Shown here: positions 22,599 to 58,850 of the stretch, one piece after another | Layout: every line of letters starts with the position of its first letter | How positions within the stretch are numbered: the first letter of the stretch is position 1 | Assembly (NCBI RefSeq): GCF_024979255.1 | Contig: NZ_JANLCN010000010.1 | Coordinates: 1 to 64,000, forward strand | DNA from: Herbiconiux moechotypicola | GTDB taxonomy: Bacteria > Actinomycetota > Actinomycetes > Actinomycetales > Microbacteriaceae | Direction: 5' to 3' | Length of the DNA stretch: 64,000 bases | Made by a program: the position numbers and the translations under genes | Notes under the pieces: model-generated | The model's database searches: none | Told to the model about the DNA's origin: nothing | Seen by the model: the letters and a program-made list of their open reading frames with translations, nothing else

Positions 22599-22774
22599 CG
22601 CCCGCGTCCCCGCATCCTTCGTTCTCGCATCCGTGTGCTCGGTGTCGCAGGATGCGCGTTGCATCCCACACCTCGAAGCTACGGATGCGCGGAGCCACGC
22701 CCATCCGACGCCGGTGCCGAATTCGCATGGCCACCCGCGGTCTTCGTGATACCTGAGTACCACCGCGACCGCCA

Positions 22775-23893: not shown

Positions 23894-23927
23894 GGTCATC
23901 TCCTTCTGTGATAAACCCGGACCGCCG

Positions 23928-25103: not shown

Positions 25104-25122
25104 CCGTTCCTCGCTAAGCGCT

Positions 25123-27942: not shown

Positions 27943-28023
27943 TTCACGAGGGTACGAGCGGATGAACGCTCCGCCTCCTGAGTAATCTCTACCCAATCAA
28001 GGCGAGCCCTCGCCCGACCAACG

Positions 28024-43778: not shown

Positions 43779-44783
43779 CTACCCGAGCGCCCGCAGCCGC
43801 GGCGCCAGGTCGCGCTCGAACAGCGTCATGAACCGCTCCTGGTCGTGCCCCGGCGCGTGGAACACGAGATGGTTGAAGCCCCAGTCGACGTACTGCCCGA
43901 TCTGCGCGGCCACCTCGTCGGGGTCGGTGCCCACGATCCAGCGCTTGGCGATGGTCTCGATCGGCAGCGCGTCGGCGGCCTTCTCCATCTCGATCGGGTC
44001 GGTGATGTCGTGCTTCTGCTCCTTCGAGAGCGACAGCGGCGACCAGAAGCGGGTGTTGTCGAGCGCGGCGTCGAGCGTCTCCTCGTAGGAGAGCTTGATC
44101 TCGATCATGCGATCGATGTCCTCGAACGAACGCCCCGCCTTCTCGGCGCCCTCCTTCACGGCCGGCACCAGCTGCTCGGTGTAGAGCTCGGCTCCCTTGC
44201 CCGAGGTGCAGATGAAGCCGTCGCCCGCACGCCCGGCGTAGCGCGCCACGACCGGTCCGCCCGCGGCGATGTACACCGGCACGCCTCCGGGCTCCACGTC
44301 GTAGATGGAGGCGTCGACAGTGGAGTAGTACTCGCCCTCGTACGACACACGGTCGCCCGTCCACAGCTCGCGCATGAGCGCCACGGCCTCGCGCAGACGC
44401 GCGAACCGCTCCTTGAACTCCGGCCATTCCTTCGCGCCCGTGGCGATCTCGTTGAGCGCCTCTCCCGAGCCCACGCCCAGCCACATGCGGCCCGGGTAGA
44501 GCACGCTCATCGAGGCGAAGTACTGCGCCAGCACCGCCGGGTTGTAGCGGAAGGTGGGCGTGAGCACGCTCGTGCCGATGCGCACCGACGAGGTGCGCTC
44601 CCCCACCGCGGCCATCCAGGCCAGCGCCGACGGCGCATGCCCACCGGTGTGCCGCCAGGGCTGGAAGTGGTCGCTCACGGCGACCGACTCGAAGCCGTGC
44701 CCCTCGGCGGCGACGGCGATCTCCACCAGCTCCCGCGGGCCGAACTGCTCGGCAGAAGCCTTGTATCCCAGCGTGATGGCCAT
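43779..44783 (-). CDS. fgd: F420-dependent glucose-6-phosphate dehydrogenase
   Basis: A 334-residue luciferase-fold enzyme that oxidises glucose 6-phosphate and reduces cofactor F420. From memory it lines up with mycobacterial FGD1 almost throughout: [92 protein letters not shown] and [20 protein letters not shown] lies 7 bases before the ATG. It supplies F420H2 for proteins such as the PPOX-fold gene at 3651. It is followed on the same strand, 14 bases away, by the kyn operon's last gene upstream. Confidence 0.93.
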
Positions 44784-44797
44784 GTGCGTGCCTTCCT

Positions 44798-45559
44798 TCA
44801 GTGCGCGTCCCCGCGCCGGCCGGGTGCCTCGAGCGCGGCGAGCACGCTCGGCCACACGGCGGTGGCGGGGTCGATGAGTTCGTAGTGACCGGCCGCGGCG
44901 AGCGGGGTGAACCGGATGCGCGGGTCACGATCAGCGTAAACCCGGCTGAACGAGGCGGGCACCTCGTCGTCGTCCTCCCCGTGTACGAGCGCGAGGGTGG
45001 GTCCGTCGGGCACGGGCAGGGTCATCGGGTCGGCAGCCGCCAGCCGGTCGATGAAGCCGGGCTCCGACGGGCCGCCGAGCAGCTCGCCGACCGCGTCGCC
45101 GCTGAGCGCCAGCCGGTGCGCCTCGGCGAGGTCGAGCACCCCGGCCAGCGACACCACGTGGTCGACCGACGCGACCGCGGCGGATCCCGACGCCGCCTGG
45201 CTCCAGACCGCGAGATGCCCACCCGCCGAGTGCCCCGCGAGCACCACCCGCGACACGGACCCCGCACCGAAGCGCTCCCGCACCAGCTCGGGCGCCGCGG
45301 CCACGATCCGGCGCACGTCGTCGAAAGTGTGCGGCCACCCGCCGCCCCCGCCGACCCGCCGGAACTCCGGCAGCGCCACCGCCCATCCGGCCTCCGCGAG
45401 CGCGACGGCCATCGGGCGCAGATGCGTGCGGTCCCACCGGCTGCGCCAGAAGCCCCCGTGCAGCAGCACGACGAGGCCGCGCATCCCGTCGCCCCGGTAC
45501 AGCTCGATCAGCTGATCGGGATGCGCCCCGTAGACGTCGACGTGATCGGGCTCACGCAC
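44798..45559 (-). CDS. Alpha/beta hydrolase, probable kynurenine formamidase
   Basis: A 253-residue enzyme with the oxyanion motif [13 protein letters not shown], the nucleophile serine in [14 protein letters not shown], an acid in [11 protein letters not shown] and the histidine in [10 protein letters not shown]. This HGGxW arrangement is shared with the alpha/beta-type kynurenine formamidases. It overlaps kynU by 8 bases and lies in the kynA-kynU operon, which supports hydrolysis of N-formylkynurenine to kynurenine. It is not of the metal-dependent bacterial KynB family, so the kynB symbol is withheld. The start is GTG. Confidence 0.78.
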
Positions 45560-46805
45560 GCGGCGCCAGCAGCGACCGGATCGCCTCCACCGTGAACTCC
45601 ACCTCGGCGAAGCTCGTCGACAGGGGCGAGAGCCCGAGCCGGATGCCCGAGGGCGCCCGGAAGTCGGGGATGACGCCGCGCGACCACAGCTCCTGCATCA
45701 GGCCGGCGAACGAGGGGTGGTCGATGGTGACGTGGCTGCCGCGCACCTCGTGCTCGCGCGGCGAGGAGAGCGTGACGCCGAGGGGCGCGAGCCGCTCGTC
45801 GAACAGCGCGATGGCGTAGTCGGTGAGCGCGAGCGACTTCGTGCGGATCGCGTCGATGCCCACCTCCTCGATGAGCCCCAGCATCTCCTGCATCGCGATC
45901 ATGCCGACCACGGGTGGGGTGCCGCTGATGAAACGCCGGATGCCGTCGGCCGGCACGTAGCCGTCGGCCATGGCGAAGGGGTTGCGGTCGCCCATCCAGC
46001 CCCAGATGGGCTGCCTGGCCTCGCCCAGCAGCGCCGCGTTCACATAGAGGAACGCCGGCGAACCCGGGCCGCCGTTGAGATACTTGTACGTGCATCCGGT
46101 GGCCAGGTCGACGCCCCAGGCGTCGAGCTCGATCGGCACCGAGCCCACCGAGTGGCAGAGGTCCCAGAGCACCAGCGCGCCCCGCTCGTGGGCGAGCGCG
46201 GTGATGCCGGGCACGTCGGCGATGTAGCCGGAGCGATAGGCGATGTGGCTCAGCACGATGACCGCGGTCTCGTCGCCGATCACGGCCTCGGCGTCGGCGA
46301 GGGTGGCGCCCCTGCCCGGCTCGGTCTCGATCCAGCGGATGTGCGCCCCGGTCTCGGCCGCGACGCCCTCCACCACGAAGCGGTCGGTGGGGAAGTTGCC
46401 GCGGTCGATGACGATCTCGCTGCGCCCGGGCCGCGCGTGGAGCGCGGTGCGGATGAGCTTGTAGAGCGACACCGTGGTGGAGTCGGCGACCACGGTCTGG
46501 CCCGCGGCGGCGCCGAGCACCGAGCGCCCGATGCGGTCGCCGAGGGCGAGCGGCAGGTTCAGCCACGACTCGTCCCAGCCCCGGATGAGACGGCCGCCCC
46601 ATTGCTCGGTGACGAACGACGAGAACACCCCGGGCAGCGAGGCCAGCGGCCGGCCGAGCGAGTTGCCGTCGAGATAGGCGGGCACCGAGGGGTCGTCGGC
46701 GCCGAGGAATCGCGAGCGGTAGCCGCCCAGCGGGTCGGCCGCGTCGAGCACGGAGGCGTCGGGCACGGGCGCGTCGGCGAGGCCCGCCGCGGGAAGGGTG
46801 GTCAT
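45552..46805 (-). CDS. kynU: Kynureninase
   Basis: A 417-residue PLP enzyme that splits kynurenine into anthranilate and alanine. The PLP lysine K241 lies in GCTYKYLNGGPGSPAF, the cofactor aspartate in LVLWDLCHSVGSVPIEL, and DSTTVSLYK and IDRGNFPTDRF mark the phosphate and N-terminal sites. The start is ATG at 46805, 4 bases after the kynA stop; an in-frame TTG at 46820 is possible. No kynurenine 3-monooxygenase is nearby, so the route stops at anthranilate. Confidence 0.93.
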   Translation of the reverse strand: MTTLPAAGLADAPVPDASVLDAADPLGGYRSRFLGADDPSVPAYLDGNSLGRPLASLPGVFSSFVTEQWGGRLIRGWDESWLNLPLALGDRIGRSVLGAAAGQTVVADSTTVSLYKLIRTALHARPGRSEIVIDRGNFPTDRFVVEGVAAETGAHIRWIETEPGRGATLADAEAVIGDETAVIVLSHIAYRSGYIADVPGITALAHERGALVLWDLCHSVGSVPIELDAWGVDLATGCTYKYLNGGPGSPAFLYVNAALLGEARQPIWGWMGDRNPFAMADGYVPADGIRRFISGTPPVVGMIAMQEMLGLIEEVGIDAIRTKSLALTDYAIALFDERLAPLGVTLSSPREHEVRGSHVTIDHPSFAGLMQELWSRGVIPDFRAPSGIRLGLSPLSTSFAEVEFTVEAIRSLLAPRA

Positions 46806-46809
46806 CGTG

Positions 46810-47679
46810 TCAGCGTCCAATCTCGGTGCGCACCGCGAACAGCTCGGGGAAGAAGGTGAGGTCGAGGGCCCGGCGCAGGAAGTCCACGCCGCTCGACCCG
46901 CCCGTGCCCACCTTCATGCCGATGGTGCGCTGCACGGTGCGGAGGTGCCTGAAGCGCCAGAGCTGGAAGTTCTCCTCGAGGTCGACGAGCTCTTCGCAGG
47001 CCTCGTAGACGGCCCAGTTCTCAGCGGAGTTGTCGTAGATCTGAATGAACACCGGCAGCAGCTCGGGGGTCATCGTGTGCGCTACCGTCACGTCGCGCTC
47101 GAGCACGGAGACGGGGACGGCAAACCCCTGACGGGCGAGGTAGCGCAGGAACTCGTCGTAGAGGCTCGGCTGCTCCAGCAGCTCCTGCAGCAGGGCCCTG
47201 GCGCCGGGCTCGCCGTCGAACACCGCGAGCATCTTGGCGTTCTTGTTGCCGAGGGCGAACTCCACCGCCCGGTACTGGAACGACTGGAAGCCCGAGGAGT
47301 TCGCCAGCGAGTCGCGGAACTGCGCGTACTCGCTGGGCGTGAGGGTAGCGAGCACCGACCACTGCTCGGTCATCGTCTTCTGGATGTGCTTCACCCGCGC
47401 GATCTTCTTCAGCGCCGCCGCGAGGTCGTCGGACGCGATGAGCGCGCTCGCCGCCTTGAGCTCGTGCAGCACCAGCTTCAGCCAGAGCTCGGTGGTCTGG
47501 TGCTGGATGATGAAGAGCATCTCGTCGTGGTGCTCGGGCTGCGACACCGGGCTCTGCGCGCTCAGCAGGGTGTCGAGCCCCAGGTACGACCCGTAGGTCA
47601 TCTTCTCGCGCAGATCGGTGACGATGCCCTCTTCGAGCTCGCGGGTGTTCGTCTCCGCCGTCTTGTCGTTGTCCACCAT
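46810..47679 (-). CDS. kynA: Tryptophan 2,3-dioxygenase
   Basis: A 289-residue haem dioxygenase that opens the indole ring to N-formylkynurenine. Family marks are [49 protein letters not shown]-type stretches ([17 protein letters not shown]) and the C-terminal [14 protein letters not shown]. Length is typical of bacterial TDO. The ATG at 47679 is only 3 bases from the -10, but GTG at codon 2 (47676) is exactly 6 bases away, so a leaderless mRNA beginning at that GTG fits better. It is first in the kynA-kynU-hydrolase operon. Confidence 0.94.
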
Positions 47680-47691: not shown

Positions 47692-47719
47692 CTTAACTCT
47701 GACGTGCGTCACGTTTAAG
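47692..47719. promoter_or_regulatory. 28-base interrupted palindrome over the kyn promoter
   Basis: CTTAA at 47692-47696 pairs with TTAAG at 47715-47719, and the inner TGACG at 47700-47704 pairs with CGTCA at 47707-47711. The spacers are symmetrical at 3-2-3 bases. It covers the predicted -35 of kynA and the end of the ABM gene, so an operator for a repressor is likely. Confidence 0.6.
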
Positions 47720-48008
47720 AAACGACATCGACCACGTACTTGGTGAACGTGGGCGGAGCCGTGGAGGCCGAGGCGATGAACGAGGTCCACTCCAGCACGT
47801 GCGGCTGCTGGGTGTGCACGGCGTGCGCCTCGCTCGGCTCCCACACCTCGAGCAGCCGCAGGAAGCCGGGCTCGGCGATCGACCACGAGAGGCTGTAGGT
47901 GACGCAGCCCTCCTCCTCGAGGCAGGCGGCCTCGAACACGCGGGCGGCCTCCTCGATCTCGGCGCGCTTCGCGGGGTCGGTCGGCACTCCGCCGTAGACG
48001 TACAGCAT
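47715..48008 (-). CDS. ABM-domain (antibiotic biosynthesis monooxygenase-like) protein
   Basis: A 97-residue ferredoxin-like-fold protein. The pattern MLYVYGGVPTDPAKRAEIEEAA, then CLEEEGCVTYSLSWSIAEPGFLRLLEVWE, then HTQQPHVLEW matches the dimeric ABM family: a helix, the EEGC strand and the HxxxPH end. Members oxidise phenolic rings or degrade small aromatics without cofactor. AGGAGAG lies 4 bases before the ATG. It is the last gene of the catabolic run that begins with the PaaX-type regulator, and its stop lies inside the kyn palindrome. Confidence 0.8.
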   Translation of the reverse strand: MLYVYGGVPTDPAKRAEIEEAARVFEAACLEEEGCVTYSLSWSIAEPGFLRLLEVWEPSEAHAVHTQQPHVLEWTSFIASASTAPPTFTKYVVDVVS

Positions 48009-48049
48009 GGTTCTCTCCTAGCAGGGGGATGGGTGGTACGGGAAGGGGT

Positions 48050-49060
48050 TCAGAACTGTTCGCGCAGCCGCGGCAGCACCTGGCTGCCGAGGAGGCGCAG
48101 AGCGGCTGCGGGGTCGGGCCCCATGGGCGGCCCGAACGAGATGTGGCGGGCCCCCGCCGCGATGAGCGCGCCGCACTGGTCGATGACCTCGGCGGCCTCG
48201 CCCACGATGCCGAGCTCGAGCATGGAGTCGGTGACCGAGGCGACGGCGTCGGCCTCGCGCCCCTCCGACATGAGCGCCTGGGTGCGCGCGAACTCCTCGG
48301 GGTCGAGCCCGTTGGCCTCGAGCGCCGCGGTCGAGAGCGAGCCGCTGTAGAGCGCGATGTGCTTGGCGAGCAGGGCCCTCGCCTCGTCGCGATCGTCGGA
48401 GATCGACACCCACACGCAGGCGGCCACGTCGAGGTCGTCGATGCTGCGTCCGGCGCTCTCGGCGCCCGCCTTGAGCTGGTCGATCACGCCGAACACGTGG
48501 CGAGGCGGAAGGCAGAGCGAGAGCGCGCCGTCGGCGATGCGCCCGGTCATGGCGATCATCTTCGGCCCCATGGCGCCCACATAGATCGGCGTGGGCCGCG
48601 GATCGTGCAGCACGGCCTGTTCGGTCCAGCCGTCGGCCACCCCGGGGACGCCCATCGGGCTGCGCCCGGCGAGCAGCTCGCGGATGGCCAGCACGGCCTG
48701 CCGGGTGCGCACCACGGGCGGGGGCGGCGTGAGGCCGGCCCACGAGAAGAACACGTCGGAGCCCGCGCCGAGCCCGAGCAGGAAGCGGTCGCCCGAGAGC
48801 TCCTGCAGCGCCGAGGCGTAGCTGGCGATCTGGGCGGGGTGCAGCGACACCGGGTCCATCACGCCCGAGCCGAAGCGGATGCGCGTGGTGCGCATCGCGA
48901 TGGCGGCGAGGCCCACGAGACCCGAGTGGCCGAACAGGTCGTTGCCGGTCCACACCTGGTCGAAGCCGGACTCCTCGGCGAGGAGGGCGCGGTCGGCGAG
49001 CGCCTCGACACCGGCCGAGGCCGAGCCGATGCGGGCGCTGAAGGTGACGGGACGGGTCAT
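48050..49060 (-). CDS. LLM class flavin-dependent oxidoreductase
   Basis: A 336-residue luciferase-like TIM barrel: GFDQVWTGNDLFG, TTRIRFGSGVMDPVSLHPAQIASYA, GDRFLLGLGAGSDVFFSWAG, and PTPIYVGAMGPKMIAMTGRIADGAL. It could use FMN or F420, and the N-terminal pattern resembles the F420-dependent methylene-tetrahydromethanopterin-reductase-like branch. In this cluster it may carry out an oxygenation or a reduction of the imported compound. Its ATG overlaps the stop of the TIGR04076 gene (ATGA). Confidence 0.85.
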   Translation of the reverse strand: MTRPVTFSARIGSASAGVEALADRALLAEESGFDQVWTGNDLFGHSGLVGLAAIAMRTTRIRFGSGVMDPVSLHPAQIASYASALQELSGDRFLLGLGAGSDVFFSWAGLTPPPPVVRTRQAVLAIRELLAGRSPMGVPGVADGWTEQAVLHDPRPTPIYVGAMGPKMIAMTGRIADGALSLCLPPRHVFGVIDQLKAGAESAGRSIDDLDVAACVWVSISDDRDEARALLAKHIALYSGSLSTAALEANGLDPEEFARTQALMSEGREADAVASVTDSMLELGIVGEAAEVIDQCGALIAAGARHISFGPPMGPDPAAALRLLGSQVLPRLREQF

Positions 49061-49356
49061 GCGGATGCTCCTGGTTCAGTACTCGGCTCGGTCACGTTCT
49101 CCAGCCGCATCCAGAGCGCCTCGGGCGGGTCGGGGCACTGCAGCAGCGGCTTCGAGTCGAGCCACTCGTCGGGGTCGTCGTCGCCGAGGCGCCCGTTCAC
49201 GAGCGGCAGCACCGAGGCGATGGCGAAGGCGCAGAACGACTGGCCGTCGGGCATCCGCAGGCCCTCGGCGTCGACCTCGAACCAGTCGCCCTTCTTCAGC
49301 GCGCAGGCCGAGTAGTTCATCGACTCGACTGTGCAGCGCACGGTGCGCCCGCTCAT
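49057..49356 (-). CDS. TIGR04076 family protein, copy 1
   Basis: A 99-residue protein with the family core: RCTVESM, KKGDWFEVDAEGLRMPDGQSFCAFAIASVLPLVNG, then a short acidic segment and CPDPPEALWMRLENV. Three conserved cysteine positions (SACALKKG, SFCAF, LQCPDP) suggest a metal or redox site, but the biochemical role of the family is unknown. It overlaps the second copy by 4 bases (ATGA) and the LLM gene by 4 bases. Confidence 0.78.
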   Translation of the reverse strand: MSGRTVRCTVESMNYSACALKKGDWFEVDAEGLRMPDGQSFCAFAIASVLPLVNGRLGDDDPDEWLDSKPLLQCPDPPEALWMRLENVTEPSTEPGASA

Positions 49357-49688
49357 CCTGCCGCCTCCTCGTAGACGGCCTCGACCTTCATCACGAGGTT
49401 CTCCTCGGCATCGGGCCCGCAGATATAGGGCTTGCGCACCAGCCAGCTGTCGGCCGGCAGATCGCCCTGCCGCATCACCACGACGGGGAAGACCGCCGCC
49501 AGCGCATAAGGGCAGAACGACTGTCCGGGAGGAAGAATGAGCCTGCTTCCGTTGATCTCGAACCAGTCGCCCACCCTCGTCCTCCCGCGCGGACGGTCCA
49601 CCCGGGTGACGGTCACCCGCACCCGCGGGCTGCCGGGCGAGATCGCCGGAGTTGGTGGGAGAGCGGCAGAGCCGGGCACGCCCCTCAT
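49353..49688 (-). CDS. TIGR04076 family protein, copy 2
   Basis: A 111-residue protein that aligns with its neighbour over GDWFEINGSRLILPPGQSFCPYALAAVFPVV and YICGPDAEENLVMKVEAVYE. It keeps the cysteines in SFCPY and ICGPD but lacks the N-terminal cysteine of copy 1. The N-terminal 25 residues are Pro/Ser-rich. The ATG at 49688 overlaps the stop of the hydroxylase gene. Tandem, sequence-diverged copies suggest a hetero-oligomer. Confidence 0.75.
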   Translation of the reverse strand: MRGVPGSAALPPTPAISPGSPRVRVTVTRVDRPRGRTRVGDWFEINGSRLILPPGQSFCPYALAAVFPVVVMRQGDLPADSWLVRKPYICGPDAEENLVMKVEAVYEEAAG

Positions 49689-50950
49689 CTCGCCTCGCGC
49701 ACGAGCGCTCCGCCGTCGTTCGAGACGTCGTCGGGGATGGTGTAGCCGCACTCGGGGTTGTTGAGGGCTGCGGAGGCATAGGAGGCCAGGTGCGCCCGGC
49801 GGGTGCCCGCGTGGGCGAGGGCGCTCATCCCGTCGCGGATGACCCGCTGGATGGGGTTGACGTCGAGGATGTAGCGGGCCGAGGCGATCTCCATGCAGAG
49901 GTTGAGCGACCGCCGGAGGGCGTTCGCAGCGACGGCGTTGGCCGCCGTCATGCGGGCTTTCTGCACCGGGGTGAGGCCGAGGCCGGGGGTCCAGAGCACC
50001 TCGTCGGTGAGCCTGGCCACCTCGCGCACACCGGCGTAGGCGAAGTCGACCTCGCCCATCGCCTCGCCGAGCGCCTGCCGGGTGGCGGCGTCGATCTTCG
50101 CGGCATCGATGGAGCCCATGCGCTCACGCACGAAGTCGCCCGCGAGCTGCACCGCGTGGCGGGCGACGCCGAGCACCACACCCGTGAGGGCGAAGTGCGA
50201 GACGGGCACGCTCTTGTTGAGCGGGTCGGCCAGCGGGTTGTCGAGACCCTCGCGGTCGAAGGTGTACCGCGCGGGCACGAAGGCGGGCTCGGTGATGGAG
50301 TAGGAGGTGCTGCCGGAGCCGCGCACGCCCAGGGTCTGCCAGTTGTGGGCCACCTCGATGGCCTCGCGCGGCAGCCAGAAGCCGAGGTGCATCTGCTTGC
50401 CGTCGGCCCCCTGCACGGGCTCGCCGTTCTCGAACACCTCGGCGCCGCCCACGATGTGCTCTGCGGTGTAGCTGCCCGAGCCCCAGTTCCACTCGCCGGT
50501 CACGAGGTAGCCGCCGTCGACCCGCTCGGCGCGCCCCCGGGGGTGGAAGGCTCCGCTCGTGGGCATGTCGCGGGTGGGGTAGAGCTCGGCGTAGGCCTCG
50601 TCGCCCAGGCGCCCCGCGTAGTACCCGCCGGCGTTGAGCACGCCGATGTTCCAGCCGGCGGAGGCGTCGACCGCCGCCACGAGCGCGGTCACCTCGACCT
50701 GCTGCGCGAGCGTGGCCTCGACCCCTCCGCGGAAGGCGGGGAAGCCCATCTCGAACACCCCGGCGGCGCGCATGACGCGGGCGGCACGGGGGCTCAGCCG
50801 GGCGAGGTTCTCGATCTCGTCGGCCTCCTCGGCGACGACGGGGAGGATGGCGTGGGCGTTGGCGACGATCGCCTCGGCGCTGTCGGGAGCGAGGAGAACG
50901 GGATCGGTGGAGCCGGTGAGCGGCTCGGCGGGGGTGTCGACCGTGGTCAT
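49685..50950 (-). CDS. Acyl-CoA dehydrogenase-fold hydroxylase (group D flavin monooxygenase-like), copy 1
   Basis: A 421-residue protein with the fold and order of HsaA/DszC-type oxygenases: [88 protein letters not shown], and LGVRGSGSTSYSITEPAFVPARYTF. It lacks an acyl-CoA dehydrogenase type catalytic glutamate that I can place. Reduced flavin from a partner is expected. AAAGGACGG precedes the ATG. It is a paralogue of the protein encoded at 53454-54629, on the far side of the transporter genes. Confidence 0.82.
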   Translation of the reverse strand: MTTVDTPAEPLTGSTDPVLLAPDSAEAIVANAHAILPVVAEEADEIENLARLSPRAARVMRAAGVFEMGFPAFRGGVEATLAQQVEVTALVAAVDASAGWNIGVLNAGGYYAGRLGDEAYAELYPTRDMPTSGAFHPRGRAERVDGGYLVTGEWNWGSGSYTAEHIVGGAEVFENGEPVQGADGKQMHLGFWLPREAIEVAHNWQTLGVRGSGSTSYSITEPAFVPARYTFDREGLDNPLADPLNKSVPVSHFALTGVVLGVARHAVQLAGDFVRERMGSIDAAKIDAATRQALGEAMGEVDFAYAGVREVARLTDEVLWTPGLGLTPVQKARMTAANAVAANALRRSLNLCMEIASARYILDVNPIQRVIRDGMSALAHAGTRRAHLASYASAALNNPECGYTIPDDVSNDGGALVREAR

Positions 50951-51014
50951 GGGACACCGTCCTTTCTGGATCGGACTCGGGAGGAGCGGGGGATGGAGGG
51001 GTGACCGGATGCGG

Positions 51015-51808
51015 TCAGGCGCCGATCGGCTCGCCGCCGGTCACCCACATGGTCTGGCCGGTGAGCGCGGCCGACCCGGGGCCGACGAGCATCGACACCA
51101 CCTGGGCGACCTCGAGGGGCGAGGGGAAGACGCCGAGCGCGGTGCGCTCGAGCAGGCGGTCGCTGAGCGCCTGGCGGGTCGCGTCGAGCGGCTCGTCGTC
51201 GGCGGGGTCAACCACGCGGCCGGGGGCGACGACGTTGGCGGTGATGCCGTTGCGGCCCTCCTCGACCGAGAGATAGCGGGTGAGCGCGGTCGCGGCCGAC
51301 TTCGCCGCGCCGTAGGCACCGAAGCCGGGGTACGGGCGCGACATGAGGGCACCGGAGATGTAGACGATGCGGCCCCAGCCGTGGGCGCGCATTCCCGGCA
51401 CCACCCGGCCCACGAGCGCCGCGTGCACCTTGACCGAGCCGAACTGGCTGTCGAGGATCTCGGGGGTGAGCTCGGCCACGGGCACCACGCCGTGGCTCTC
51501 GTGCGTGGTGTTCACGAGCACCGTCACCGGCCCGACGGTGTTCTCGACCTCGGCGAAGGCCGCGTCGAGCGCCGCGGGGTCGGAGAGGTCGGCCTGCACC
51601 ACGAGATGCGAGCCCGGCAGCGACTCGGCGAGCGCCTCCGCTCCCGCACGGTCGCGACGGCAGTGCACCACGACGGTGGCACCCAGCCGGGCGAGCTCGC
51701 GCACGATCTCGCGGCCGAGCGAGCCGGTCGCCCCGGCGACGAAGGCGACCTCGCCGGCCAGCGCGCCCCGCGCATCCGGAGTCGTGCTCGTGGCGGCCTC
51801 GGCCGCGC

Positions 51809-51812
<4 letters not shown>
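51015..51812 (-). CDS. Short-chain dehydrogenase/reductase
   Basis: A 265-residue Rossmann enzyme. The NAD(P) loop is [11 protein letters not shown] with arginines after strand 2 (HCRRDRAG), which favours NADPH. The catalytic triad is visible as S in YISGALMS and Y-x3-K in [11 protein letters not shown], and [15 protein letters not shown] is the usual C-terminal motif. It would oxidise or reduce a hydroxyl/keto group in the cluster's pathway, or it could be a FabG-like reductase. The GTG start overlaps the ATPase stop (GTGA). Confidence 0.88.
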
Positions 51813-52572
<760 letters not shown>

Positions 52573-52576
<4 letters not shown>

Positions 52577-53457
52577 CGCTCTGCCGTCCTCTTCTCGACG
52601 AAGTACTGCACGACGGTGAGCACGGCGATCACCAGCAGGTACCAGATGGATGCGACGATCAGCAGCTCGATCGTGCGGAAGTTCACGCCCGAGATGCCGA
52701 GCGCCACCGTGAGCAGGTCGCCGCCCGCGATCACCGAGACGATCGCGGAGGCCTTGAGCATGCTGATGAATTCGTTGCCCATCGGGGGCAGCAGCACCTT
52801 CAGCGCCTGCGGCATGACGATGTAGCGGAGGGTGCGCGTGCGGTTGAGGCCCAGCGCCTTCGCCGCCTCGTGCTGGCCGCGGCCGATGGAGAGCAGGCCG
52901 CCGCGCACGATCTCGGCCATGTAGCCCGAGCCCGCGAGCGAGAGGCCGATCACCGAGGCCAGGAACGGGCTCATCACGTCTTTCACCGGCACCGACCAGA
53001 AGGTGATGTCGGTGAACGGGATGCCGATGGCGAAATCCTGGAAGAACAGGCCCAGGTTGCCCACGAAGATGAGCAGCACGATCATCGGGATGCCGCGGAA
53101 GATGAACACGTAGGCGGCGGCGAACCCACTCACGATGCGGCTGGGCGAGATGCGCATGACCGCGATCACGACGGCCAGGATGAGCGCCACCACCATCGAC
53201 ACCGCGCTGATCTGCAGGGTCGACCAGAGGCCCTTGAGGATCGCCGGGCTGAACACGAACTCCCAGACGATGGGCCACTCGATGTTGGGGTTGGTCCACA
53301 GCCCCATCACCACACTCGCGAGGATCACCACCGAGACGACGGCCAGCACTCCGCGCCCCCAGTGCCGCACCGGCACCACGTTGAGCTTGGTCTCGCGCAG
53401 CAGCAGCGGGCGCGCACCCTCGCGGCCCACCGCCGCCTCTGCCGGGCTGTCGGTCAT
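52573..53457 (-). CDS. Amino-acid-type ABC transporter permease
   Basis: A 294-residue permease with five or six membrane segments. [29 protein letters not shown] and [18 protein letters not shown] are typical, and the EAA loop is [34 protein letters not shown]. Only one permease gene is present, so a homodimer is implied. ATGA overlaps on both sides tie it to the hydroxylase upstream and the ATPase downstream. Confidence 0.92.
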
Positions 53458-54629
53458 CGTTCCTCCTCCACCAGGGTGCGTCCCACGTCGACCCAGCGGC
53501 TGCGCCAGGTCGAGGCGTGGGCGGTCACGCCCACGAGGTCGCGGATCAGTCGTTCGAACGGGCCGCTGAGGTAGATCACCTGCGACCCCATGAGCTCGGC
53601 GCACAGGTCGACGATGCGCCGGGCGAGGTCGGCGGCCACGGGCGCGTCGCCCCTGGCCATCACCGAGGCGCTCGGCAGCACCCCGGGGGTGAACACCGCC
53701 TCGTCGATGCGGGCGACACCCGAGTAGACCACCGCGCGGGCGGCGCGCAGCAGACTCTCCGCCTCGCCCAGCAGGCCGAGCTTGCGGGCGTCGACGGGCA
53801 CGGGGCCGGCGGCTCGCTTGCGCAGCTCGGCCGCGGCCAGGTCGACGGCGTGCTGCGCGATGCCGACGGCGATGGATGCGGTGCTGTAGAACGGCAGGTC
53901 GACCAGCTTGTTGAGCGGCTCGGCGTCGGGGTCTGGGGTGAAGTAGCGGTCGAAGGAGTGGGCTGCGGGCACGAACACGTCGTCGACGGCGTATCCGCTC
54001 GAGCCGGAGCCGCGGAGGCCCACGACCTGCCAGTCGTCGAGGATCTCGACCTCGCCGACCGGCAGCCACACCCCGAGCACGAGGGCGCTGCCGTCGTCTT
54101 TGAGCACCTTCTCGCCGCCGTCGAACACCTCGACGCCGCCGAGCACGTAGTGGGAGGAGTGGATGCCGCTGCCGAACTTCCAGCGGCCGGTGACCCGGTA
54201 GCCGCCGTCGACGACCTCGGCGCGGCCCCGGGGGTGGAACGAGCCGCAGGTGGGCCGGTCGAGGTCGGGGTAGAGCTCGGCGAAGGCCTCGTCGTCGAGG
54301 CGTCCGGCGTAGAAGCCGGTGGCGGCGAGGATGGCCGCGTTCCACGCGACACCGGCGTCGATGGTGGCGATCATCTCCACCAGGCGGGTCTGGTCGGTGA
54401 GGCTGAGCTCGGGGCCGCCGCGGCGGGCGGCGAAGCCCACCTGGAACACGCCGGCGGCGGCGAGCGCGGCGGCCATGCGGTCGGTGAGGTGCCCGAGCTC
54501 GCTCGAGGCCGACGCCTCCTCGGCGACGATCGGGAGGATCGTCTCGACGTTGGCGAGGATCGCCGCGGCATCGAGCGGCGGCCGGAGCCCGTCGAGGAGC
54601 GGGTCGTGGACGGTGTCGGTGAGCGTCAT
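53454..54629 (-). CDS. Acyl-CoA dehydrogenase-fold hydroxylase, copy 2
   Basis: A 391-residue paralogue of the protein at 49685-50950, with the same landmarks in the same order: [86 protein letters not shown] and [20 protein letters not shown]. Flavin-dependent oxygenation is inferred as for copy 1. The two may act on successive intermediates or form a mixed tetramer. It is separated from the upstream lipoprotein gene by a strong hairpin, so it is probably made at a lower level than the lipoprotein. Confidence 0.82.
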
Positions 54630-54696
54630 CGGGGAGTCGCTTTCTGGGGTGACACGGATGCGGGTCGCCCGGCACACGAGGTGCGGGGCGGGAAGC

Positions 54697-54733
54697 CGGG
54701 AGCGGCCGGGCGGGGGGATGCCGGCCGCTCCCG
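54697..54733 (-). terminator. Intercistronic hairpin after the substrate-binding-protein gene
   Basis: A perfect 13-pair stem joins 54697-54709 to 54721-54733 (core GGGAGCGGCCGG) with an 11-base loop. It follows the lipoprotein stop by 6 bases within the operon. Such hairpins often act as partial terminators or stabilise the upstream message so that the binding protein is made in excess. Confidence 0.65.
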
Positions 54734-54738
54734 ACCGG

Positions 54739-55710
54739 TCAGGAGGCCGCGACCTCGCCGGGGGCGGTGCCCGTCATCGGGTTGATGATCAGTTCGTCGA
54801 CCGTGATGGCCTGCGACGAGACGCCGTACTCCTCGTAGATCGCGTCGTAGCTGCCGTCCTCGATGAGGATCTTGAGAGCGCCCGCGAGCGCCTCGGAGAG
54901 GCCGGGCGCGTCCTTCGACACCGCGATGCCGCCGAACTGCGTGGGCATCTCGCTCTCGGGGATGACGACCGAGGTGAACACGTCGGGGTCGGCGGCCACG
55001 ACGGCCTCCTGGGCCGAGGTGGTGTCGAACCAGGCGTCGACCGTTCCGGCGCGCAGCGCCTGCACGGCGCTGGTGGCGCCCTGGTACTCGGCCATCTGGA
55101 TCGGGTCGGCGGCGCACTCGGCGTCGCTGATCGCCTGCACCGTGGCCGACTGGTTCGAGCCGACAGGCACGGCGATGGTCATGCCGCACATGTCGGCGAT
55201 CTTCTCGATGTCCTCGGGATTCCCGGCCGGCAGCAGCAGCGAGTGGCTGCTCTTCTGGAACGGCACGAGGTCGACGATGCTCTGCTCGCGCTCGGCGGTG
55301 ATGCTCACCTGGCCGAACAGGGCGTCGACGGTGCCCGCCTGCACGCCCGGCAGCTGCGCCGGCCACTGCATGTTCATCCACTCGGCGTCGACGCCGAGGA
55401 TGGGGGCCATGAGAGCGACGAGGTCAGGAGCGATGCCCACGGGGGTGTCGGGGTCGTTGATGTCGGCGCCGATCACCGGAGGCGTCTCCCAGAGGGCGCC
55501 GAACGAGATGACGCCGCTCTCCTGGATCGACTCGGGGAGCAGGTCGTGCAGCTCCTGGCTGAACACGTCGTCGGCGGCGGCCGTCTCGGTGGGGGTCGCC
55601 GCGTCGGAGGTGCCCGAACAGCCCGCGAGGGCCACGGCGGAGAGGAGGGCGATGCCGGGAAGGGCCAGGCGCCTGGCCCGGAGGGAACGGGAAGGGATGG
55701 AGGAGCTCAT
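54739..55710 (-). CDS. Amino-acid-type ABC transporter substrate-binding lipoprotein
   Basis: A 323-residue lipoprotein with an Arg-rich n-region and lipobox LAGC near residue 31. The mature protein is a type II binding protein of the SBP_bac_3 family: GVISFGALWETPPVIGADINDPDTPVGIAPDLVALMAPILG, MQWPAQLPGVQAGTVDALFGQVSITAERE, and IAVPVGSNQSATV. In amino-acid binders the carboxylate is held by an arginine in TPER-like segments; here TAERE includes it. The ligand is not determinable. It is first in its transcript, behind a region with two palindromes. Confidence 0.87.
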   Translation of the reverse strand: MSSSIPSRSLRARRLALPGIALLSAVALAGCSGTSDAATPTETAAADDVFSQELHDLLPESIQESGVISFGALWETPPVIGADINDPDTPVGIAPDLVALMAPILGVDAEWMNMQWPAQLPGVQAGTVDALFGQVSITAEREQSIVDLVPFQKSSHSLLLPAGNPEDIEKIADMCGMTIAVPVGSNQSATVQAISDAECAADPIQMAEYQGATSAVQALRAGTVDAWFDTTSAQEAVVAADPDVFTSVVIPESEMPTQFGGIAVSKDAPGLSEALAGALKILIEDGSYDAIYEEYGVSSQAITVDELIINPMTGTAPGEVAAS

Positions 55711-55844
55711 AGTCAGGGGTCCTATCGTGTCGGGATGGTGCGGGGGGTGCAGGCCCCGTGGTGCCAACCTGCCGACTCCATTCCTACAGAAGCGATGTGA
55801 CCGCGAGATTTCTGTCGGTTACAGTCATGTTTCAATTCACTGAC

Positions 55845-55863
55845 TGACGTCACAAATTTGTGA
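55845..55863. promoter_or_regulatory. Overlapping palindromes upstream of the transporter operon
   Basis: TGACGTCA at 55845-55852 and the perfect 14-mer TCACAAATTTGTGA at 55850-55863 overlap. They lie in the 165-base A+T-richer gap between the hydrolase-fold gene and the lipoprotein gene, and TTGTGA could itself be a -35. A regulator site is likely; the PaaX-type protein encoded upstream is one candidate. Confidence 0.5.
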
Positions 55864-55875
55864 TGAACCGCCCAC

Positions 55876-56808
55876 TCAGACCCAGATCACGGGACAGCCC
55901 GCCGCCACGTAGGCCGACTCGACGCGCGAGCGCCCATCCTGGTTCTCGGTGAGCGTAGTGGCGAGCACCGCCACCGAGTACTCATGGCCGTACAGCGTGC
56001 CGAACTCCGCCACGTCGGTGTCGCGCAGCCTCTCCTCGCCCACCCGCGGTTGCAGTCGCGCACGGCGACGCTCGGGCGCGAGACCCTTGGCCTCGAGCGA
56101 GGTGTCGACCGAGGCCAGCACGGAGGCGGGCAGGTCACCCGCGACGACGATCCCCAGCCGGTGCCCCGCCGGCGCGTAGAGCCGGGCGAGGTCGCCGTCG
56201 AGCGAGCGGGCCGCCGGCCAGCCACCCGTCACGCACCACTCGAGCATCTCCGGCCAGGGGCCGAACCCCGAAGCCGCGTTCAGGTGCGCCCCTCCCGGAA
56301 CCTCGACCGACTCGAGTCCGAGCGGCACGCCGTAGAGCGCATCGGCACCACCCGAGCCCTCCGAAAGGTAGGGGTCGTCGGCCGACCAGACGAGGAGCGT
56401 GGGCCGGAGCGCGGCCGCGGCCACCGCATCCGGTGTCACCTCGGCACCGAGCGGGGCCGACACGTCGCCGCCGTGCAGACCGGATGCGGGCGGCGCGACC
56501 AGCACCACCCGCTCGGCCAGCGGAGACGTCGCCTCGCCGCACATCCGGAGCCAGAGCAGCACGCTGAGGCCGTGGGCGATCACCGTGAGACCCTTGGGGC
56601 CGCCGTCGCGCACGAGCGCGCGGCCCACCACCGCCGACCAGTCGGCGAACCGCGGGTTCTCGGGGTCCGGGAGGGTGAGGTAGTCGACCTCGGCGCCGCG
56701 TTCCACCAGCCGCTCGGCGAGCCAGCCCTGCCAGTGCAGGGGCTCGCGGCGGTGCTGCCAGCCGTCCAGCAGCAGGAAGCGGCGGCCGAGGAGGGTGGTG
56801 TCGGACAT
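55876..56808 (-). CDS. RBBP9/YdeN-like alpha/beta-hydrolase-fold protein lacking the nucleophile serine
   Basis: A 310-residue protein. The first 200 residues match the RBBP9-type hydrolase fold: LLLDGWQHRREPLHWQGWLAERL, acid D144/D145 in VWSADDPYLS, and H175 in GGAHLNAASGFGPWPE. At the nucleophile elbow, where HSLG is expected, it reads VIAHGLSVLL, so G80 replaces serine. The last 100 residues are not part of the usual domain and I do not recognise them. It may be a binding protein or use S82. It starts 11 bases after the PaaX-type gene's stop. Confidence 0.75.
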   Translation of the reverse strand: MSDTTLLGRRFLLLDGWQHRREPLHWQGWLAERLVERGAEVDYLTLPDPENPRFADWSAVVGRALVRDGGPKGLTVIAHGLSVLLWLRMCGEATSPLAERVVLVAPPASGLHGGDVSAPLGAEVTPDAVAAAALRPTLLVWSADDPYLSEGSGGADALYGVPLGLESVEVPGGAHLNAASGFGPWPEMLEWCVTGGWPAARSLDGDLARLYAPAGHRLGIVVAGDLPASVLASVDTSLEAKGLAPERRRARLQPRVGEERLRDTDVAEFGTLYGHEYSVAVLATTLTENQDGRSRVESAYVAAGCPVIWV

Positions 56809-56818
56809 GGTCTCGCTC

Positions 56819-57709
56819 TCAGTCGGTGACGGTCAGTGCGGGCGACGCGCCGAGGGCCGGGTCGGCGATGGCCGTGCCGGTCACTTCCGACACGAAGTCG
56901 GTGGCCGGCCCGCTGAACCGCTCGCGCAGCTCGAGCAGCAGCGCGTTGCTCGCGTCGCCGGGCCAGTCGTCGGGCAGAAGCCCCGCGGGCAGGCCGGGGT
57001 CGATGTAGGGGATGATGCGCCAGGTGTCGACGCTGCGGATGTAGATGGCGAACGCCTCCCTGGCCGACACCGGCGGGTCGGTGGGCACGAGGCCGTCGGC
57101 CGCGTGCTGCTCGAGGAAGGCCTCGTGGTGACCGCGGATCTCGTCGAGGTCCCACCAGCCCTCGATCGCCTGACGCAGATCTCCGGCCACGCGCGGTCGC
57201 TCCGCGATGAACACGGTCGAGTGCTCCCGCAGCTCGAGGTCGTCGAGGATCTCCTCCACCTCGCCCGCGAGGTAGGCCGGGCAGATCCAGAGCGCGGGCG
57301 ACACGGTGCCGCAACCGATCCAGTGCAGGCGCCGGCGCAGCTGGTGCCTGAGGTGCCGGTTCTCCTCGGGGATCGAGAACGACACCACACACCAGCGGCT
57401 CTCCGGGCCCATGTTGCGGGGGTGGTAGATGCGCCGGTCGCCGCGGGCGAGCATGGTCGCCGCCTCGGGCACGAGCGAGTAGCCGGCCACCTTGTCGCGC
57501 GTCTCAGGCACCACGAGCGACTTTTTCTTCACCCGCACCAGCGCCGTGCGGGTGCGGGGCGCCGGCACATCGAGCGCCTCCATCAGCTCGAGCAGGTCGG
57601 CCACGGCGATCCAGCCGCCGAGCTGCCGCAGATAGAGGCCGAGAACCGTGCGCAGCAGCGACGTGGTGCTCCCGGGCCGGGAGTCCATGTCGTCGAGGAT
57701 CTCGCTCAC
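56819..57709 (-). CDS. PaaX-family transcriptional regulator
   Basis: A 296-residue regulator. The N-terminal winged helix is TTSLLRTVLGLYLRQLGGWIAVADLLELMEAL...RTRTALVRVKKKSLVV. The central part is GDRRIYHPRN and WCVVSFSIPEENRHLRHQLRRRLHWIGCGTVSPALWICP, the PaaX core domain, followed by the C-terminal PaaX domain. PaaX proteins repress aromatic-acid catabolism and are released by an aryl-CoA. It is first in the run of genes leading down to 47715, so it probably controls that run and itself. The GTG start follows GGAAGGTGG. Confidence 0.88.
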   Translation of the reverse strand: MSEILDDMDSRPGSTTSLLRTVLGLYLRQLGGWIAVADLLELMEALDVPAPRTRTALVRVKKKSLVVPETRDKVAGYSLVPEAATMLARGDRRIYHPRNMGPESRWCVVSFSIPEENRHLRHQLRRRLHWIGCGTVSPALWICPAYLAGEVEEILDDLELREHSTVFIAERPRVAGDLRQAIEGWWDLDEIRGHHEAFLEQHAADGLVPTDPPVSAREAFAIYIRSVDTWRIIPYIDPGLPAGLLPDDWPGDASNALLLELRERFSGPATDFVSEVTGTAIADPALGASPALTVTD

Positions 57710-57766
57710 GACACCACCTTCCGCGCGGTCTCGGATGTCGCGCCGATCTGACCTTAACCGATCTGC

Positions 57767-57833
57767 GACGGTCGTCAGGGATGCGTAAGACGTTTAAACG
57801 CGACCGTAACATTTCTGAATCATGACGGTCGTC
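57767..57833. promoter_or_regulatory. Direct repeats flanking a palindrome upstream of the PaaX-type gene
   Basis: GACGGTCGTC occurs at 57767-57776 and again at 57824-57833, with the palindrome CGTTTAAACG at 57791-57800 between them. The block lies 58 bases upstream of the PaaX-type start and is a candidate self-regulation site. ACGTTTAA also occurs in the kyn palindrome. Confidence 0.45.
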
Positions 57834-57863
57834 CAGACCGTTCCGGCCGGCGGAATCGGGCGG

Positions 57864-58850
57864 TCAGGCGCCGGCGGGCACCGAGAGCTCGAGCACCGAG
57901 AACGCAGCCGCGTCGGGAGCGGGCAGACCCGTCACGCGCACGTAGCGGAAGTCGTGCAGCGCGTAACCCGGCTCGAACACCTCGTCGACGGTGCCGGCCG
58001 ACACGAACACGTCGGTGCCGATGACGGTCGGCTCACCCTCCTCCGGATGCGCGGGCAGGTGCTCCAGCGTCACCTCGCTCCCGGCGGGCAGGGTGAAGCG
58101 CACTCGCAGGCGGCCCACCAGGCGACGACCGAAGTCGACCAGCACCTGCCCGCCCGGCCCCCACGACTGCTGGGTGCGCGCCGCGCTCTCGCCCACGACC
58201 CGCACGGCCTCCTGCGTCTCGGCCTCGTCGGGCCGCACGATCGCGTCGAGGCTCTGATCGGCGGCGATGCGGGGCGGTGTCCAGCGGGCGTCATCGAAGC
58301 CCGCCTCCTTCCACCCGGCGTCGCGCAGCGCGTGCTCCTGCCGCTCGCCCCTGCCCGGCTCGGAGTAGATGATGGCGCCCGTGGTGCAGCGGAACGACTC
58401 GTCGGAGACCACCACGACCTCCGAGCCGTCGGAGAGCTCCACCACGAGGTCGAACAGCACCGCGAGAGGAGGCGTCTCGCCGGGGAACGGCCGCACCCCC
58501 GGTACCGGCGTCGTCGCGCCCCAGCTCTCGCCGAGGATCAGCCCGACCACGTTCTCGCCGGCCACCAGCGTGGAGATCGCGTCGTACTCGCGCGCGATCG
58601 GCTCGCCGGCGGGACCCGTCGACGGCCCCTCCGCATCCAGCCGCCGGTCGTTGATGAACAGCGCCACGTCGCCCCGCGCCGCCACGCGGGCACGGGCCGA
58701 CACGATGGTCGGGCTGTCGCCGTCGCCGTCGCCGTCGGGCAGCACGAACGGCACACGCAGACGCTGCGGGCGCCGGCTGCCCTCGGGAACCGGAACCGGC
58801 TCGATCCAGCGCCCGAGCCAGCCCTCCGCGCTCACAGGGCCCGCGCTCAC
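57864..58850 (-). CDS. Alpha-L-rhamnosidase N-terminal domain protein without catalytic barrel
   Basis: A 328-residue protein that corresponds to the N-terminal beta-sandwich modules of GH78 rhamnosidases: ARARVAARGDVALFINDRRLDAEG, YDAISTLVAGENVVGLILGESWG, SDESFRCTTGAIIYSEPGRGE with WKEAGFDDARWTPP, and LVDFGRRLVGRLRVRF plus HDFRYVRVTGLPAP. It stops where the (alpha/alpha)6 catalytic barrel should begin. It may bind a carbohydrate, or be a relic. The GTG start overlaps the ccsB stop as GTGA, so it is translated together with a cytochrome c maturation gene, an odd partner. Confidence 0.7.
   Translation of the reverse strand: MSAGPVSAEGWLGRWIEPVPVPEGSRRPQRLRVPFVLPDGDGDGDSPTIVSARARVAARGDVALFINDRRLDAEGPSTGPAGEPIAREYDAISTLVAGENVVGLILGESWGATTPVPGVRPFPGETPPLAVLFDLVVELSDGSEVVVVSDESFRCTTGAIIYSEPGRGERQEHALRDAGWKEAGFDDARWTPPRIAADQSLDAIVRPDEAETQEAVRVVGESAARTQQSWGPGGQVLVDFGRRLVGRLRVRFTLPAGSEVTLEHLPAHPEEGEPTVIGTDVFVSAGTVDEVFEPGYALHDFRYVRVTGLPAPDAAAFSVLELSVPAGA

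Follow-up and report, generated by a model that had tools for sequence, protein, structure and literature searches.

A 64,000-nucleotide stretch of the genome of the actinobacterium Herbiconiux moechotypicola (contig NZ_JANLCN010000010.1, positions 1 to 64,000; hereafter the window) carries a minus-strand run of twelve genes (47715-57709), which on balance we believe to serve uptake and initial oxidation at the head of a longer island, controlled by PaaX, for the catabolism of a tryptophan-family α-amino acid via anthranilate. The run codes for a PaaX-type regulator, a hydrolase-fold fusion protein, the binding protein, permease and ATPase of an ATP-binding cassette (ABC) importer, two flavin oxygenases of the acyl-CoA dehydrogenase (ACAD) fold, here ACAD1 and ACAD2, a short-chain dehydrogenase/reductase (SDR), two TIGR04076 proteins, an LLM-class protein and an ABM-domain protein. 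Its gene content, its conservation, its operator-like sites and the presence of a lower pathway in the same genome are read directly from the DNA; the neighbouring genes, the common operator and the anthraniloyl-CoA genes encoded in the same genomes indicate that the substrate belongs to the tryptophan/kynurenine family. A first-pass annotation had proposed uptake and oxidative breakdown of an amino-acid-like or nitrogen-containing aromatic compound, and this outline fits the evidence. It left the compound unnamed because its reading stopped at 47715, just short of a tryptophan 2,3-dioxygenase and a kynureninase; the run does not end there, as the dioxygenase gene begins 35 bp further on, on the same strand.

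Kynurenine-pathway genes adjoin the twelve-gene run

The four genes that follow the ABM gene, all on the minus strand, code for the following proteins: the tryptophan 2,3-dioxygenase (46810-47679), the kynureninase (45552-46805; +4 bp), an α/β hydrolase (44798-45559; -8 bp) and an F420-dependent glucose-6-phosphate dehydrogenase (43779-44783; +14 bp). The dioxygenase (392.1 bits to TIGR03036, cut-off 390.7) and the kynureninase (258.7 bits to TIGR01814, cut-off 246.4) both score above equivalog cut-offs, as enzymes of the kynurenine pathway to anthranilate, and Lys241 in the YKY motif of the latter is invariant in all 10 aligned sequences. The dehydrogenase is likewise well above its cut-off (TIGR03554, 611.6 bits against 420). 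The α/β hydrolase (PF20434, with HGGFW and GHSAGG motifs) matched no formamidase model at the cut-offs used in the profile searches; its family and its place beside the kynureninase make it a probable kynurenine formamidase. At another locus (L070:735-1793, the same gene as L017:17732-18793) a 353-aa protein with no Pfam match at E 0.001, possibly a different formamidase, is encoded between the dioxygenase and the kynureninase.

Within the run itself, domain and family profile searches of the translated frames recovered all twelve genes with the domains that the first-pass annotation had named. Its description of most junctions as 4-base overlaps applies to six of the eleven; the remaining five have spacings of +10, +165, +109, +64 and +41 bp, the widest lying before (165 bp) and after (109 bp) the gene for the binding protein.

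A shared palindrome links the run to the kynurenine genes

The regulator (56819-57709, 296 aa) has the three PaaX domains (PF07848, PF20803 and PF08223), and with 141.4 bits to TIGR02277 it stays below the equivalog cut-off of 264.55 for the PaaX of phenylacetate degradation. Beyond it, a gene for a protein with an α-L-rhamnosidase-like domain (57864-58667) ends 154 bp before paaX, and a 41% identical frame precedes paaX in the relative L009. The palindrome TGACGNNCGTCA is what we take to be the operator of an anthraniloyl-CoA-responsive PaaX-type repressor (of the MeqR2 kind), which is presumably released by anthraniloyl-CoA. The only exact copy in the window (47700-47711) falls in the 35-bp gap upstream of the dioxygenase gene, and its presence there suggests that this gene opens a second transcription unit. 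Of the six sites with one mismatch, three are located in the gap upstream of the importer and oxidative module (55841-55852) and in the region upstream of paaX (57766-57777 and 57823-57834). When two mismatches are allowed the whole window has 58 sites, no more than shuffled sequences (mean 60.67).

Across loci, TGACGNNCGTCA with no more than one mismatch precedes the dioxygenase gene in 11 of 15 cases (six of them exact), the counterparts of the twelve-gene run in 7 of 10, and paaX in 3 of the 7 such loci whose upstream regions were covered, against a background of 30 sites in 395,373 positions. Among the 1,024 palindromes of the same form TGACGNNCGTCA ranks first, occurring in 18 of the 25 dioxygenase and core intervals, followed by a one-letter neighbour with 7 and then by a count of 3. 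The intervals were chosen by hand from gene maps, and the dioxygenase site of G319, lying in the part shared with locus L017, also counts towards the background, making the test slightly stricter; as the loci are related, the Poisson values of this test overstate their independence. Given that the palindrome precedes the dioxygenase, importer and paaX genes and is top-ranked across loci, the run and the kynurenine genes probably constitute one regulon feeding anthraniloyl-CoA.

The core is rare and its organization is conserved

Counterparts of the run (hereafter the core) were found by similarity to ACAD2, whose presence in ten of ten core loci is thus by construction. At strict thresholds ACAD2 homologues are present in 4 of 398 genomes of the family, one of which is that of the window, in 1 of 396 of the order and 1 of 394 of the class (in both cases the window's own), and in 1 of 331 of the family of Gordonia, namely Gordonia itself. 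The ten core loci are those of the window, Herbiconiux ginsengi, two Microbacterium, Microbacteriaceae 3FA27C10, three further Microbacteriaceae (G319, G321 and G1462), Gordonia desulfuricans and a plasmid of Rhodococcus qingshengii. A second Rhodococcus plasmid with an equal-scoring ACAD2 match was left out, and records standing for one contig (L009 and L016) or one genome (G1125 and G1459) were counted once. An F420-dehydrogenase match in L009 was to a paralogue and was set aside, and a match in L108 over an SDR gene, one of five matches other than the window's own, was taken as spurious.

The importer, the SDR, both TIGR04076 proteins and the LLM protein are encoded in all ten loci, the ABM protein in nine (G1462 being judged from L075; the exception is Gordonia) and ACAD1 in four. 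The order importer-SDR-ACAD2-TIGR04076a-TIGR04076b-LLM is maintained with small changes: the importer lies elsewhere in the island in Microbacterium 67-17 and the SDR gene follows the ABM gene in Rhodococcus. With these small changes, gene content and order are shared by the ten loci, which represent at least four genera, and this bears out the co-conservation on which the first-pass annotation had made its grouping depend. In eight of these loci the dioxygenase and kynureninase genes are contiguous with the core, in one of two arrangements, either after the ABM gene or upstream of paaX; on the Rhodococcus plasmid they are found about 11 kb beyond the module. The dioxygenase of the cluster is the only one found in seven of eight genomes searched, the eighth (Gordonia) having none, and all five core carriers among 16 members of the genus possess a tryptophan dioxygenase.

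Members of the genus that are devoid of the core show three gene orders: paaX-dioxygenase-kynureninase-hydrolase (L037 and L038); dioxygenase-kynureninase-hydrolase-F420 dehydrogenase (L035 and L036); and dioxygenase-another gene-kynureninase-paaX (L040 and L041). These orders give the impression that in both arrangements the core was inserted beside paaX. The presence of the F420 dehydrogenase in coreless loci means that its link is not specific to the core. An inserted core, as suggested by the first and third of these orders, could act on a different amino acid, perhaps one with a phenolic group or sulfur, as a separate pathway that shares only its regulator with the tryptophan operon; that Gordonia carries the core alone, and that the best solved-structure match of the ACAD profile is Rv3094c, which we take to be an S-oxygenase, would agree with this. 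We nevertheless regard such independence as unlikely: the core and the kynurenine genes stay together in two contiguous arrangements and in the Rhodococcus locus, the same operator-like palindrome is seen before both, and a kynureninase-derived domain belongs to the core in ten of ten loci.

A dead hydrolase fused to a kynureninase fragment

This kynureninase-derived domain is in the product of the gene next to paaX (55876-56808). The first-pass annotation had correctly described the protein as a hydrolase-fold protein without a nucleophile: its RBBP9/YdeN-like α/β hydrolase domain (Ser_hydrolase, PF06821) reads HGLS, with Gly80 at the place of the expected nucleophilic Ser in five of five aligned homologues. 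It missed the second domain (residues about 198-310), which is homologous to the kynureninase fold; the protein thus joins a dead RBBP9-like hydrolase to a fragment of kynureninase. This fragment aligns with residues 133-250 of human kynureninase and stops there, and hence does not furnish the Asp and Lys that bind pyridoxal phosphate, which we take to be residues 250 and 276 of the human enzyme. Comparison by hhalign of the fragment with the local kynureninases found no homology. At the corresponding position of another locus (L015:16440-17270) there is an open frame for a degenerate kynureninase that is absent from the incomplete PLSDB gene table. The dead fragment may work as a sensor. Its retention is of interest in itself: the actinobacterial genera that keep it number at least four (Herbiconiux, Microbacterium, Gordonia and Rhodococcus), and it persists even in a Gordonia where no real kynureninase was found.

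The importer and the oxidative module

The importer comprises an SBP_bac_3 binding protein (54739-55710), a permease (52573-53457; PF00528) and an ATPase (51809-52576; PF00005). In the binding protein Arg141 and Asp229, presumably with roles in amino-acid binding, are invariant in all eight aligned sequences: in the alignments shown, Arg141 falls on the Arg of amino-acid binders of solved structure, and Asp229 on the Asp of GlnP domains, being one column off in AncQR. Since these residues of amino-acid binders are kept, the ligand is likely to be an α-amino acid.

The oxidative module consists of ACAD1 (53454-54629), the SDR (51015-51812; domain and NCBIfam matches), ACAD2 (49685-50950), TIGR04076 proteins a (49353-49688) and b (49057-49356), the LLM protein (48050-49060) and the ABM protein (47715-48008; PF03992). 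The two ACAD proteins are 44% identical and resemble HsaA and HpaH-C2; with 113.4 and 107.1 bits neither reaches the cut-off of 450 of the HsaA equivalog NF045629. Across the 12 aligned ACAD proteins H380, which aligns with His396 of HpaH, is invariant, and the position of HpaH Ser146 is uniformly occupied by Gly133; we presume both positions to have functional roles in HpaH. The nearest solved structures of the LLM protein are F420-dependent methylene-tetrahydromethanopterin reductases (Mer; 181 bits to 8qpm), compared with 62.9 bits to the one luciferase-family chain among the matches listed. It scores below the Mer equivalog cut-offs, and going by its closest solved relatives it would be of the F420-dependent Mer type; the gene for the F420-dependent dehydrogenase described above lies near it. 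In Microbacterium excoecariae a second LLM gene is found beside ACAD1; the second LLM copy of L008 (5401-6390), 50% identical to the LLM protein of the window, directly precedes ACAD1. This adjacency suggests that ACAD and LLM proteins work as pairs.

Both TIGR04076 proteins exceed the family cut-off of 33 (38.3 bits for a, 41.6 for b), and the model of protein b weakly matches the N-terminal domain of XdhC/CoxI. Members of this family were also encountered in other settings: in G1458 (L037:253-3950 and L065:18106-19899) a second TIGR04076-like and LLM-like pair stands beside genes for a formamidase-like hydrolase and a RidA-like protein, downstream of hydantoinase-like and ABC transporter genes and about 4 kb from the coreless kynurenine operon; alphaproteobacterial plasmids (L078, L079, L081 and L082) recurrently combine a branched-chain-type ABC importer, a GntR regulator, a TIGR04076 protein and one or two aldo/keto reductases; and the Rhodococcus YL-1 plasmid (L077:8464-13745) has consecutive genes for an APC permease, a TIGR04076 protein, two LLM proteins and an FAD-dependent oxidoreductase. 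The combination on the alphaproteobacterial plasmids suggests that proteins of this family are often found together with a reductase and an importer.

A flavin reductase gene is present in five of the ten core loci, between the kynureninase and hydrolase genes in four (L006, L007, L008 and L009) and after the SDR gene in Rhodococcus; none was found in L010, L017, L018 and L039. This brings to mind the iac system, in which IacA is an ACAD-family oxygenase, IacE an SDR and IacG annotated as a flavin reductase (PMC7225977). By this parallel the core could be an iac/iif-like system for oxidizing the indole ring, in which an ACAD oxygenase, a flavin reductase and an SDR convert tryptophan or another indole amino acid through oxindole and dioxindole to anthranilate, bypassing tryptophan dioxygenase, and this would account for the core of Gordonia without a dioxygenase. 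We think it quite improbable. HsaA and HpaH-C2 outscore XiaF, the indole enzyme used for the comparison; the scan of the cluster genes revealed no ring-hydroxylating dioxygenase domain; the NCBIfam matches include no Iac family, it being uncertain whether that library has one; and the LLM protein, the TIGR04076 pair and the ABM protein would be left unexplained.

An anthraniloyl-CoA lower pathway in the same genomes

In addition to the core and the kynurenine genes, the Rhodococcus locus has genes for a CoA ligase, a thioesterase, a 2-aminobenzoyl-CoA monooxygenase/reductase (annotated as salicylyl-CoA 5-hydroxylase/oxidoreductase), RidA, an FAA hydrolase and a cupin. In the genome of the window this lower-pathway set lies on a separate contig and includes a second PaaX protein, 34% identical to that of the window; its reductase homologue (G000:C12:14510-16885) and that of Rhodococcus share 67% identity over residues 1-783. 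Homologues whose match begins at residue 1 and extends to residue 669 (of 788) or beyond occur in 10 of the 20 genomes examined, namely all eight Microbacteriaceae core carriers and two of the eleven Microbacteriaceae non-carriers (G1458 and G1461); the other nine Microbacteriaceae match in the C-terminal half only, and Gordonia has no match at E 1e-60. The copy in G1462 is cut by a contig end, and in G321 and G1461 a single stop falls within the match at codon 758, close to its end; we took this stop as the natural end of the gene. In five of the ten loci (G1125, G1126, G1127, G319 and Rhodococcus) the reductase gene is contiguous with the core. Sites resembling TGACGNNCGTCA are found near the start of the lower-pathway genes in seven of ten loci, three of them exact; none was seen at these genes in L069, L070 and L071.

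The joint occurrence of tryptophan, anthranilate and F420 themes might alternatively recall a biosynthetic cluster, in which tryptophan is converted to an anthranilate building block alongside an F420-dependent reductase as in pyrrolobenzodiazepine clusters. A paper on the porothramycin cluster has the terms anthranilate, kynureninase and F420 (PMC4194701), and the annotation of the Rhodococcus locus places a nonribosomal peptide synthetase (NRPS) gene (L015:337-4398) at a distance of about 11 kb from paaX. Yet the island combines an importer with control of the PaaX type and with anthraniloyl-CoA genes for ring degradation, the scan of the window's cluster genes detected no NRPS domain, and none is named in the lower-pathway genes scanned, so that we give a biosynthetic role very little credence.

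A proposed catabolic route and the evidence weighing against it

Taking catabolism of a tryptophan-family amino acid as the preferred reading, we envisage the following course of events. PaaX would act as a repressor that leaves its TGACGNNCGTCA operators once anthraniloyl-CoA accumulates, so that the importer, the oxidative module and the kynurenine genes are turned on together, and the ABC importer would bring in the amino acid. Unmodified tryptophan would pass via N-formylkynurenine and kynurenine to anthranilate and alanine, the anthranilate then being converted to anthraniloyl-CoA. The ACAD/SDR/LLM/TIGR04076/ABM module, supplied with reduced flavin and F420H2, would act on tryptophan or kynurenine that is ring-oxidized or substituted and make it fit to enter the kynurenine route; the roles of all these module proteins are inferred. 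The fusion protein encoded beside paaX would bind the amino acid and serve as a sensor or co-regulator rather than as an enzyme. Finally, the CoA ligase, cupin, thioesterase, reductase homologue, RidA and FAA hydrolase, encoded elsewhere in the genome or contiguously in relatives, would constitute the lower pathway.

Several observations weigh against this proposal. Six members of the genus carry the dioxygenase without the core, and therefore tryptophan catabolism does not need the core; two coreless genomes also carry the reductase. Conversely, the Gordonia desulfuricans core consists of the importer, SDR, ACAD2, TIGR04076 pair, LLM and fusion proteins, with no ABM protein at the locus and with no dioxygenase, kynureninase or full-length reductase in the genome at the thresholds used, and therefore the core does not need the kynurenine route there. 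The locus of the window lacks the flavin reductase of four relatives, the best match in its own genome being 30% identical. Evolution of the kynureninase fragment is fast, with dN/dS values of about 0.4 and 0.7 for the two pairs compared. All seven pre-core sites of the presumed operator have one mismatch, none being exact, while three core loci have no site at all.

A bolder version of the proposal, which we put forward only tentatively, would see in the core a new F420-linked oxidative entry to tryptophan-family catabolism, in which the two ACAD-fold oxygenases, the TIGR04076 pair and the Mer-type reductase process a modified form of tryptophan or kynurenine after its import. Guarding it would be a sensor of a new kind, derived from two dead enzymes, the RBBP9-like hydrolase and the kynureninase fragment, and working beside an anthraniloyl-CoA-sensing PaaX. 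With the reading developed here, which would tie F420 chemistry to aromatic amino-acid catabolism, a previously nameless run of genes becomes a testable pathway that has a shortlist of substrates (tryptophan, kynurenine and their oxidized or substituted forms) and a predicted regulator, operator and effector; it also offers a concrete setting for the TIGR04076 proteins, whose family name gives no function. Elsewhere in the window (22000-28000) the G+C content falls from about 0.72 to 0.65-0.66, and neither tRNA nor Rfam matches occur there.

Comparison with known systems

A literature search, to which most subscription papers were out of reach, turned up no described gene set of this kind with an assigned substrate. 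The cmo/ytm pathway for S-substituted cysteines couples an importer with an N-acetyltransferase and a deacetylase. Neither of these two domains is present among the cluster genes scanned, and the hint of the first-pass annotation at sulfur compounds found no support. The iac pathway of indole-3-acetate catabolism includes a ring-hydroxylating dioxygenase, which the cluster genes scanned do not; the amino-acid importer is a further difference, as is the greater proximity of the ACAD proteins to HsaA and HpaH than to XiaF. Common to both are an ACAD-family oxygenase, an SDR and, in relatives of the window, a flavin reductase (PMC7225977). With the two-component flavin hydroxylases HsaA and HpaH-C2 the ACAD proteins share the fold family and the conserved His, but they differ from them in the invariant Gly133, in scores far under the HsaA cut-off and in the lack of a flavin reductase partner at the window locus.

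The bacterial kynurenine pathway is matched by an equivalog-level dioxygenase and kynureninase and by the formamidase-like hydrolase, to which the island adds the importer, two ACAD-fold oxygenases, F420-type proteins and the dead kynureninase fragment. The other close parallel is the meq/anthraniloyl-CoA regulon of Arthrobacter sp. Rue61a, which leads from quinaldine through anthranilate to anthraniloyl-CoA: plasmid pAL1 carries the same lower-pathway set, with an AMP-binding ligase, a thioesterase, a cupin, an FAA hydrolase, RidA and a reductase homologue beside two PaaX-type genes, whose products are 36-37% identical to the PaaX of the window, and the same palindrome TGACGNNCGTCA occurs at these genes as one exact and one one-mismatch site. 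For Rue61a, the published account states that anthranilate-CoA ligase activity was shown and that PaaX-related regulators are involved in the control of quinaldine degradation (PMC3534580). The upper pathway there degrades quinaldine, in contrast to the amino-acid import, the ACAD/SDR/TIGR04076/LLM module and the dioxygenase/kynureninase genes of the present island. The present island is best described as a probable regulon of the PaaX/anthraniloyl-CoA type in which an unassigned oxidative module is joined to a kynurenine upper pathway.

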